Origin: an uncultured Prochlorococcus sp.
GTDB lineage: Bacteria; Cyanobacteriota; Cyanobacteriia; PCC-6307; Cyanobiaceae
Length of the DNA stretch: 64,000 nt
Direction: 5' to 3'
Assembly (NCBI RefSeq): GCF_902522795.1
Contig: NZ_CABYWZ010000006.1
Coordinates: 1 to 64,000 of the forward strand
Part shown: in pieces, positions 13,778 to 56,611 of the stretch
Layout of the letters: each line of letters starts with the position of its first letter
How positions within the stretch are numbered: position 1 is the stretch's first letter
Made by a program: the position numbers and the translations under genes
The notes under the pieces: model-generated
What the model was told of the DNA's origin: nothing
The model's database searches: none
Seen by the model: the letters and a program-made list of their open reading frames with translations, nothing else

Positions 13778-14356
13778 TTAATCGATCACTATAGTCCAGC
13801 TTCCTAAATAACTTGAAAATGATTTTCCTTTAGGTTGCCCATATGAATGAAATTGATATAAACCTGATTTTTTTGGATTAAAGATTTTAAAGACAACTGC
13901 ATAATTGTCTTTATTAGATGGAATTGGGCTGTAGGGGTAAATATCTAGTGAACGTAAGCCTGATTCCTCAGTAGTAATTTCTAAATCAGCTGGAATATCT
14001 TCTAAACATTTTGTTCTAGTATCAAAACCGCCAATTCTTACTTTACAAAAACTAATTTTTTCACTTTTTAAAGTGGATTTAAAGGTTTTAGGAATTGCTA
14101 GATTAATTTTTAAGAGATCGGTTTTTCTATCAGATGGCCTTAAGAAAAAATAGAGTGTATTTCTTAATTTCCTTTTATCTTCTTTTTGAAACCACTTTAA
14201 TTGTCTGAAATTAGAGTCTTGATCCCATTGAAATTCTAACCCTGCTTTAACATCTTGGGTGTTATCAAAAAAAGGAGTTGAAACTAAAATTGTGGGAATA
14301 ATAAAAAATCTTAAAATTTTAAGATTAAAAATAAGTTTCTTTGTTTTTTTTAACAT
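13778..14356 (-). CDS. DUF2808 family secreted/periplasmic protein
   Basis: This 192-residue protein has a basic N-terminus, a hydrophobic segment at about 14-28 and an Ala-Gly cleavage-like site near residue 38 (DVKAGLEF), consistent with export. The rest matches the cyanobacterial DUF2808 family: RNTLYFFLRPSDRKTDLL, LAIPKTF, a Cys pair around GGFDTRTKCLE, and YAVVFKIFNPKKSGLYQFHS near the end. Function is unknown. It lies 30 bases upstream of rpmH in the same direction. Confidence 0.8.
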   Translation of the reverse strand: MLKKTKKLIFNLKILRFFIIPTILVSTPFFDNTQDVKAGLEFQWDQDSNFRQLKWFQKEDKRKLRNTLYFFLRPSDRKTDLLKINLAIPKTFKSTLKSEKISFCKVRIGGFDTRTKCLEDIPADLEITTEESGLRSLDIYPYSPIPSNKDNYAVVFKIFNPKKSGLYQFHSYGQPKGKSFSSYLGSWTIVID

Positions 14357-29558: not shown

Positions 29559-29772
29559 TAATTAATATTGTAGATACTTTATGTGTTTCCCCAGTAAGTT
29601 TTACAAATTAGAAACTCTTCGCACGTTAATCTCTTATAAGTAAATCCCCTTCTCTCTGAATTAGAGTGATTTTTCTTTATGTCCACAAATGGGAAACTGT
29701 CACATGTGACAGTTAAGTAACATTACATTCAGCGCTTCCACAAAATAGAATTTAATGGCATAGTTTATATAT
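29559..29772. other. Upstream region of the small RNA
   Basis: This stretch has no convincing open frame. It contains a perfect 20-bp palindrome at 29695-29714, and an AT-rich -10-like segment near 29761-29771 just before the small RNA. Confidence 0.5.
29695..29714. promoter_or_regulatory. Perfect 20-bp palindrome upstream of the small RNA
   Basis: AACTGTCACA and TGTGACAGTT form a gapless perfect inverted repeat. With no loop it cannot make a stable RNA hairpin of full length, so a binding site for a dimeric regulator is more likely. The core TCACATGTGA has the CRP half-sites in the reverse order to the CRP consensus, so a cyclic-AMP receptor site is not a good match, and it does not fit the NtcA GTAN8TAC pattern either. 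It lies about 60-80 bases upstream of the probable start of the Yfr2-like RNA. Confidence 0.55.
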
Positions 29773-29868
29773 GTGTGAAGGAGTGGATTTACTGAAGCAG
29801 TGGAAACAAGGAAACACTTGTTTTGGTAGAACCATAAAAGACCCAATTATCAGGGGTCTTTTTTTTTT
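29773..29868 (+). ncRNA. Yfr2/Cyano-1-type small RNA
   Basis: The sequence carries the family hallmark of two tandem GGAAACA elements (GTGGAAACAAGGAAACACT, near 29800-29818). It ends in an intrinsic terminator. Near the 5' end is GTGTGAAGGAGT (29773-29784), which except for one extra A is the complement of ACTCCTCACAC, the conserved core of the sRNA Yfr1. Published work on Prochlorococcus reports that Yfr1 and Yfr2-type RNAs can interact; that this copy does so is inference. The 5' end is set from a TAGTTT -10-like box at 29761-29766 and is uncertain by several bases. Confidence 0.75.
29838..29868 (+). terminator. Intrinsic terminator of the small RNA
   Basis: AAGACCC (29838-29844) pairs with GGGTCTT (29854-29860) across a 9-base AT-rich loop, followed by a run of T to 29868. 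This is a standard rho-independent terminator on the plus strand and fixes the 3' end of the Yfr2-like RNA. Confidence 0.85.
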
Positions 29869-33123: not shown

Positions 33124-34506
33124 TTAATCTAGATCAGGCATTTCTAGAGCTGGTTCACTCTTTCTGTCGATTCCTTTCTCGAAACCAGCAGCGGCAGCTC
33201 TAGCACGTCCAGCATGCCAAAGATGACCGATAAATGTAAACCATCCTAGGAAGAATTGAGCTGCAGCTAACCATTGTCTTAAGTTAACGAAGTTAACAGC
33301 ATTTGGCTCTGTAATGATTCCACCAACAGAGTTGATAGAAGCGTTAGGAGCATGAGTCATATATTCAGCTGCTCTTCTTACCTGCCAAGGCTGAATATCA
33401 TTTTGAATTTTCTCAAGGCTCAATCCATTAGGACCTCTTAAAGGCTCTAACCATGGACCTCTGAAATCCCAAAATCTCATTGTTTCACCACCAAATATAA
33501 TTTCACCAGTAGGAGATCTCATGAGATACTTACCTAGACCTGTTGGTCCCATTGTTGAACCTACGTTAGCTCCAATTCTTTGGTCTCTCACAAGGAAAGT
33601 AAAGCTTTGAGCCTGTGAAGCTTCAGCATTTGTTGGGCCATAAAATTCTGAAGGGTAAGCAGTATTGTTAAACCAAATGAATGTTGAAGCAATGAAACTT
33701 GCTACACAAATTCCACCAAGAGCATAACTTAAAAGTCCTTCACCATTCCAGATGAATGCTCTTCTTGCCCATCCAAAGGGTTTAGTGAAGATATGGAATA
33801 TTCCTCCAATAATTGCAGTAATACCCACGTAAACGTGTCCACCAACAATATCTTCAATGGAGTTGACTCCGATTATTGAACCAGCTCCTCCCCATGGAGA
33901 TCTAAATAGATAACCAAGAATAACTCTCGGATCTAAAGTTGGATTAACAAGTCTGACTTCACCACCACCAGGTGCCCATGTGTCATATGCACCGCCAATA
34001 AAACACCAGTTAACAGACCATGCTAATGCACCTACACCCAATACAATCAAATGATATCCAAGAATATTTGTCATCTGATTTTTATCTCTCCAGTCGGTAG
34101 AGAAAAATGGAAAATCTTCTTCAAGTTTTTCTGGGCCTGCTAATGAGTGGTAAATACCACCAAAACCAAGAACAGCAGAAGCTATCAAATGAACCACGCC
34201 TGCTTGGAAGAAAGGCATGATATCAGTAACTTCACCACCTGGGCCAATCCCGTAGCCAAACATTGCAACGTGTGGCATACAGATTAAACCTTGCTCCCAC
34301 ATTGGTTTATCAAAAGTGAAATGATTAACCTCAAAGAGCATCATTGCTCCCGCCCAAAAGACTATGAGTCCAGAGTGAGCAATGTGAGCTCCTAATAAAC
34401 GTCCAGATAAATTGATTAATCTAGCATTACCTACATACCAGGCATAACCAGTTTCCTCAATACTTTGGTTTGGAGCTCTTAATAGATTATTAAAGGGCGT
34501 TTCCAC
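33124..34506 (-). CDS. psbC: Photosystem II CP43 chlorophyll apoprotein
   Basis: CP43 is an inner antenna of photosystem II, with six membrane helices and a large lumenal loop. The 460-residue product from GTG at 34506 starts [10 protein letters not shown]. The lumenal loop has GPTGPTG-type residues and [20 protein letters not shown], whose Glu and Arg contact the oxygen-evolving cluster. I chose this GTG because a perfect AGGAGG lies nine bases upstream inside psbD and psbC commonly starts this way; a TTG nine codons upstream also opens the frame. It overlaps psbD by 17 bases. Confidence 0.98.
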
Positions 34507-35566
34507 GTGGAAGAACCTCCTCAGGGAATACAAAGTTTTCGTGTGGTTGATCCACAGAAGACATCCATGCTCGCATACCTTCGTTCAAAAGTATATTTTT
34601 TGTATAGAAAGTTTCAAATTCTGGATCTTCTGCTGCACGGATTTCTTGGCTTACGAAATCATAAGCTCTTAAGTTTAGTGCTAAGCCTACAATACCAATT
34701 GAAGATGTCCACATACCCATAACAGGTACAAATAGCATCAAGAAATGTAAGAAACGCTTGTTTGAGAAAGCAATACCGAAGATTTGACTCCAGAATCTAT
34801 TCGCTGTAATCATTGAATAAGTTTCTTCTTCTTGAGTTGGGTCAAAAGCTCTAAATGTTGAACTTTGAACCTTACCATCTGTGTAAATACTTGTATCTTC
34901 ATACAAAGTGTTTTGAACTGTAGCTCCATGAATAGCGCAAAGTAGAGCACCACCAAGAATTCCAGCAACACCCATCATGTGGAATGGATTTAAAGTAATA
35001 TTGTGAAAACCTTGAATGAACAGAATATAACGGAAGATTGCTGCAACACCGAATGAAGGTGCGAAGAACCAACTATGCTGTCCTAAAGGATAAATAAGGA
35101 AAATACTTGTAAATACTGCAATTACTGCTGAAAATGCTAAAGCATTGTAAGGTCTAATTCCAACAAGGCCAGCAATTTCAAACTGACGAAGCATAAAACC
35201 AATTAGGCCAAATACTCCATGTAATGCAACGAAGTTCCAAAGACCACCAAGCTGTAGCCATCTTACGAAACTACCTTGGGCTTCAGGACCCCATAAAAAT
35301 AGAAGACTGTGTCCCATGGCATCACCAGGGGTACTTACAGCTGCTGTTAAAAAGTTACAACCTTCAAGGTATGAGCTTGCAACTCCATGTGTGTACCAAG
35401 AGGTAACAAATGTTGTTCCGACGAACCAACCACCTATAGCAAGATATGCACAAGGAAGTAGAAGTAGTCCGGACCAACCAATAAATACAAAGCGGTCGCG
35501 CTTCAACCAATCATCGAGGACATCAAACCATCCTCTTTGTGGGGCGCTACCAACTGCGATCGTCAT
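34490..35566 (-). CDS. psbD: Photosystem II D2 reaction-centre protein
   Basis: D2 pairs with D1 to hold the photosystem II pigments, quinone QA and part of the electron chain. The 358-residue protein starts [20 protein letters not shown]. Visible hallmarks include [18 protein letters not shown] with chlorophyll and pheophytin contacts, [20 protein letters not shown] with the iron- and QA-site His, and the C-terminal [12 protein letters not shown]. psbC follows in an overlapping frame. The 182-base upstream spacer holds the promoter. Confidence 0.99.
34504..34521 (-). promoter_or_regulatory. Shine-Dalgarno and GTG start of psbC inside psbD
   Basis: AGGAGG (minus strand, 34521-34516) precedes GTG (34506-34504) by nine bases, all within the last codons of psbD. 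It decides the psbC start over the upstream TTG. Few genes in this window have such a strong ribosome-binding site. Confidence 0.8.
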
Positions 35567-56463: not shown

Positions 56464-56611
56464 ATTACAAAACCATTTTTACGGATTTATTATAAAAATA
56501 AATCAGTTAAGCTCAGAAAGCTTACTTGGAATTTTCATGTAAGAATTAGGTAATTGAGAAATTGTTTTTAGCTAAGATATAATCTTTTTTTTTTACAAAT
56601 ATTTGTCTCAT

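Follow-up and report, generated by a model that had tools for sequence, protein, structure and literature searches.

The yfr10-yfr2 locus and its palindrome

The window analyzed here is a stretch of 64,000 nucleotides from the genome of an uncultured Prochlorococcus sp. Rfam models place two small RNAs on one strand of it, Yfr10 and a Cyano-1/Yfr2-family RNA, with a palindrome between them. The first-pass annotation described this palindrome as lying in DNA with no gene. That description does not hold, since the dyad adjoins Yfr10 (29607-29687) on its upstream side and the Cyano-1 match (29769-29838) on its downstream side. Yfr10 genes upstream of Yfr2 genes are a known arrangement in high-light Prochlorococcus (PMC6778093). 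The transcription start of the window's Yfr2 was taken to be 29773, by homology with the RACE-mapped start of MED4 yfr2 at 346828 (gene 346828..346921; PMC1242208). By RNA folding, the Yfr2 terminator hairpin and T run reach approximately 29868. The features of the locus are listed below.

29607..29687, plus strand: Yfr10 small RNA, the upstream neighbor of the dyad (Rfam, 57.2 bits)
29695..29714, no strand: perfect dyad AACTGTCACATGTGACAGTT, picocyanobacterial consensus AACTGKCAC-N1..2-GTGMCAGTT, proposed CGRE1-type PlmA operator (sequence, conservation, and PMC6778093)
29695..29703, plus strand: distal half-site AACTGTCAC, with symmetry variable at base 29700 (21 orthologs)
29706..29714, plus strand: promoter-proximal half-site GTGACAGTT, held at a fixed position of about -63 relative to the Rfam start (promoter comparison)
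29715..29726, plus strand: conserved block AAGTAACATT(C/A)C immediately 3' of the dyad (0.93-0.98 per 10 bases, ortholog alignment)
29735..29750, plus strand: conserved block CTTCCACRAAAWAGAA, -38 to -23 region (ortholog alignment)
29759..29764, plus strand: putative -10 element CATAGT (promoter alignment; position relative to the mapped MED4 start)
29769..29868, plus strand: Yfr2-family small RNA, +1 by homology at 29773 (Rfam Cyano-1 at 29769-29838, 65.7 bits)

The sequence confirms that AACTGTCACATGTGACAGTT at 29695-29714 is a gapless, fully symmetric 20-bp dyad. The bases just outside it (29694 A / 29715 A) are not complementary, so that the dyad is exactly 20 bp long. No other copy is present in the window at up to three mismatches, and no second full dyad occurs elsewhere in the assembly; i.e., the copy at 29695-29714 is the sole one. 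The length of the palindrome by itself is weak evidence of function. Under a first-order random model, 0.25 perfect palindromes of at least 20 bp are expected in the 64 kb of the window; a further one, the AT-rich AATCTTAAAATTTTAAGATT at 14307-14326, is present, near that expectation. Thus, the length of the dyad alone is not striking, and it is conservation that decides. For palindromes with at least 8 G/C, the expectation is only 0.017.

Relative to the Yfr2 start at 29773, the dyad spans -78 to -59 (center -68.5), in agreement with the 60-80 bases first estimated. The dyad sequence matches neither the NtcA site GTAN8TAC nor the CRP site TGTGAN6TCACA, and both assignments were rejected; that NtcA does not fit, and that the half-sites are reversed relative to those of CRP, had been recognized in the first-pass annotation and follows directly from the sequence.

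Two further Rfam matches were noted in the window. One is the small RNA Yfr19, at 56520-56599 (plus strand). The other is a strong match to IsrR (151 bits) at 33909-34092 (plus strand), on the strand opposite to an open reading frame, 33124-34533, that looks like psbC (CP43). Because IsiA is a relative of CP43, homology between the coding sequences may account for this match, and not an isiA antisense RNA.

Conservation, symmetry and position of the element

The conservation of the dyad was assessed in 21 distinct orthologous promoters. Identity within the dyad is 0.96 per base (0.94 in the left half and 0.98 in the right), versus 0.81 for the 35 bases upstream (29660-29694). That is, the dyad is conserved across strains while its upstream flank varies, as the first-pass annotation had proposed for an operator. 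Beyond the dyad, conservation is next highest in two blocks, 29715-29726 and 29735-29750. Base 29700 is the only freely varying base of the dyad, with G in 12 orthologs, T in 8 and A in 1, while its partner, base 29709, is A in 21 of 21. Since one member of this pair varies and the other is constant, the perfect symmetry seen in the window is incidental, namely one state of a degenerate position, and not the feature that is conserved.

The geometry of the element was examined in 198 yfr2 promoters collected across the genus and the family, using 250-bp upstream regions and defining a full dyad as the consensus above with at most three mismatches. Because many of these promoters are mutually related, the following counts do not represent independent events: full dyads are found in 62 of the 198 promoters, with a spacer of 2 bases (n=35), 1 base (n=26) or none (n=1), and 22 of the 62 are symmetric at the variable pair; 53 are centered between -57.5 and -65 from the Rfam start, and the remainder lie nearer to it, at about -21 to -36; the proximal half-site (at most one mismatch) occurs 119 times in the interval -68..-55, versus 11 times elsewhere in the 250-bp regions; and 149 of 196 promoters contain a relaxed half-site within -70..-48, versus 12.5 in shuffled sequences. 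The distal half of the element is variable or missing in many yfr2 copies, while the proximal half is kept. The second yfr2 copy of the window's own genome, at the start of another contig, has only a half-site, CATGTGACAGTTAAG, which lies equally far from the start of its RNA. The enrichment of the half-site at a fixed distance, together with the lone half-site of this second copy, identifies the proximal half as the anchor of the element; it alone is near-universal and locked in position. As the distal half is missing from many copies, another protein could use the half-site as well.

A different placement is seen in MIT9313, whose yfr2 lies at complement 1667304..1667390 (PMC1242208). There, the dyad is centered at about -30, inside the core promoter, and the same arrangement is found in other genera. 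Counted from where the Rfam match to yfr2 begins, the center in MIT9313 and several other genera falls between about -21 and -36, rather than at about -60 (L102, L103, L108, L109, L111, L178, L204 and L250).

Occurrence in other genomes

An unbiased search for the degenerate pattern AAYTGKCAYATGTGACARTT in 84,980 species genomes matched at least 119 stretches. Removal of duplicates left at least 118 distinct sites, of which at least 88 are at yfr2, at least 15 at one small envelope-protein gene, at least 2 between both, and at least 13 elsewhere. Among the matches listed, all 105 Prochlorococcus sites with complete flanks are located at yfr2, at the envelope-protein gene, or between both; the 13 sites elsewhere comprise 4 Prochlorococcus sites at the end of a stretch, with incomplete flanks, 8 sites in unrelated bacteria, and 1 in Cyanobium. 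The number of matches expected by chance, estimated at about 7-8 in 257 Gb, agrees with the 8 sites in other phyla among these matches.

In MED4, dyads with at most one mismatch occur only at 346756 and 383315, i.e., at yfr2 (center -65.5) and yfr4 (center -67.5). Its yfr5 has only a half-site, and the promoter of yfr3 has neither dyad nor half-site; yfr3 is the lowest-expressed among the RNAs reported earlier (PMC2518516). The Rfam match to MED4 Yfr10, 346661-346738, coincides with the published coordinates (PMC2518516).

The product of the second gene preceded by the dyad is a protein of 146-148 amino acids that appears to carry a signal peptide and has a glycine-zipper-like domain at its C terminus. 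Its match to the Pfam family Rick_17kDa_Anti (E = 0.014) is below the cut-off of that family, and a search of NCBIfam returned no match. Among 115 genomes searched, the dyad is centered 100-103 bp before the ATG in 17 of the 17 high-light Prochlorococcus genomes with an ortholog, and in most of these 17 the leader starts with the Yfr2-like sequence TGTGTGAGTGAG. In some strains (L053, L307, L366), a single dyad is shared by this gene and a divergent yfr2. Two Cyanobium-like genomes (L131, L130/L410) likewise have the dyad ahead of a protein whose C-terminal domain is related. Perfect or near-perfect dyads in this group, at 1501-1516 in L130 (Cyanobium sp. Morenito 9A2) and at 1501-1516 and 2169-2184 in L131, lie before glycine-zipper genes and neighboring secreted-protein genes. 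For most other genera, the stretches analyzed around glycine-zipper relatives contain no dyad, so that the association with this second target is not a general one. A search of the assembly to which the window belongs gave no match to the gene; it extends the candidate regulon, without bearing on the window itself.

Assignment to a regulator

Conservation, geometry and restriction to particular promoters together support well the notion that the dyad is the operator of a small-RNA promoter for a dimeric regulator, as had been surmised from the palindrome. In the first-pass annotation this regulator was described as unidentified, and that part of the proposal is unsupported, because a published candidate exists. 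According to PMC6778093, the GntR regulator PMM1637 (PlmA) binds the CGRE1-bearing promoters of yfr2 homologs; it regulates two of the four homologs in MED4, and CGRE1 is absent from the rest of that genome. As described there, CGRE1 (Lambrecht et al. 2018, via PMC6778093) and the dyad are alike in their distribution: both belong to the yfr2 family, both are found at two of the four MED4 homologs, and both are found nowhere else in MED4. The comparison is thus one of distribution, rather than of printed sequence. From this match we infer that the dyad is CGRE1 and most likely a PlmA operator. A GntR dimer as the binder of this element of picocyanobacterial yfr2 promoters would also suit the dyad form. 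Our preferred reading, to which we assign a probability of about 85%, is therefore that the palindrome serves as a DNA operator within the Yfr2 promoter, most likely CGRE1 bound by a dimer of PlmA. The dyad also goes beyond CGRE1 as PMC6778093 describes it for MED4, in that other strains and Cyanobium carry it before the envelope-protein gene.

PlmA is reported to be universal in cyanobacteria and exclusive to them (PMC5083789); it has been tied to PII-PipX and to thioredoxin, and its regulon has been called undefined (PMC6243067). The genome from which the window derives has one GntR gene (G000:C7:62731), which encodes 328 amino acids and scores 49.6 bits against PF00392, relative to a cut-off of 27. 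By its length, its uniqueness and the published universality of PlmA, this gene is most likely plmA. The general operator consensus of GntR regulators is NyGTNxACNy, with the FadR, HutC and YtrA subfamilies distinguished (PMC4494728). Like these operators, the dyad is an inverted repeat, and the copy in the window, in which the variable base is T, fits the consensus as GT-N8-AC. Most of its orthologs, however, have GG instead of GT, with G replacing T in 12 of 21, and the spacer between half-sites is 1 or 2 bases. GT and AC are farther apart than in operators of the FadR or HutC subfamilies; in YtrA, a subfamily near PlmA, GT and AC are far from the center, and in the GntR family single sites are often not strictly symmetric (PMC4494728).

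A yfr2 operator could also be recognized by a dimeric regulator other than PlmA, e.g., a Prochlorococcus regulator of the Crp type or the MarR type, or one of its response regulators, with CGRE1 being an adjoining block instead. CGRE1 is known here by its distribution and not by its sequence, the blocks at 29715-29726 and 29735-29750 are conserved besides the dyad, and only the T variant of the dyad satisfies the GntR consensus. These flanking blocks, however, are also present at MED4 yfr3, and so they fit the distribution given for CGRE1 in PMC6778093, i.e., two of four homologs and nowhere else, less well than the dyad does. We thus regard another regulator as unlikely. Visual inspection also raised the idea that the flank may resemble an HLR1 site of RpaB.

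An RNA hairpin, acting as the terminator of Yfr10 or as a processing site in a Yfr10-Yfr2 precursor, is far less probable still. A 270-nt precursor of this kind was reported in MED4 (PMC2518516, Table 1), so that the dyad can be transcribed, and as RNA it forms a stem of 8 bp closed by a CAUG loop. Yet among 20 distinct 20-bp dyads, pairing is retained at 83.8%, versus 84.4% in shuffles, with one change on both sides, and pair 6 of the stem is broken in 15 of the 20; the outer pair is broken in 48 of 62 dyads. There is no T run after the dyad and no terminator was found there, and the dyad also precedes a protein gene that lacks Yfr10. With neither compensatory pairing nor a T run, a hairpin or terminator was rejected. 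As to a chance palindrome or a mobile repeat, such as the relic of an attachment site or transposon end, the 0.25 palindromes of this length expected per window give it some initial plausibility. It is refuted, however, by conservation at a fixed promoter distance across the genus and in other genera, and by the specificity of the element: among the matches listed, the full-flank Prochlorococcus sites are all at yfr2 or at one other promoter type. We consider its likelihood to be negligible.

If the dyad is indeed the operator of PlmA, one subunit of the dimer would occupy each AACTGKCAC half-site. Anchoring would be provided by the proximal half, whose distance from the start is fixed, and binding would be strengthened by the distal half. 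A dimer centered at about -66 to -68 would be in the position of a class-I activator, from which PlmA probably raises Yfr2 transcription in high light and under nitrogen starvation. Both conditions are known to induce Yfr2 (PMC6778093). The placement of the dyad at about -30 in other genera does not suit activation, and for promoters of the MIT9313 type, in which it falls within the core promoter, repression is predicted.

With somewhat less than even confidence, we also suggest that the PlmA regulon is wider than published for MED4. It would include the glycine-zipper envelope-protein gene in many high-light Prochlorococcus and in Cyanobium, sometimes through one operator shared with a divergent yfr2, and, through the shift from about -66 to about -30, yfr2 of MIT9313 and some relatives would be regulated in the opposite direction. 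The consensus AACTGKCAC-N1..2-GTGMCAGTT provides a candidate PlmA operator at base level across picocyanobacteria. Such a definition would make the PlmA regulon searchable, and it predicts one new family of target genes as well as a clade-dependent sign of Yfr2 regulation. The details added here are the locked proximal half-site, the incidental nature of the symmetry, the placement at about -30 in MIT9313 and some relatives, and the envelope-protein gene. In one relative (G264, contig 1, 1376587-1388451), several dyad-bearing copies of yfr2 are interleaved with glycine-zipper genes within approximately 12 kb.
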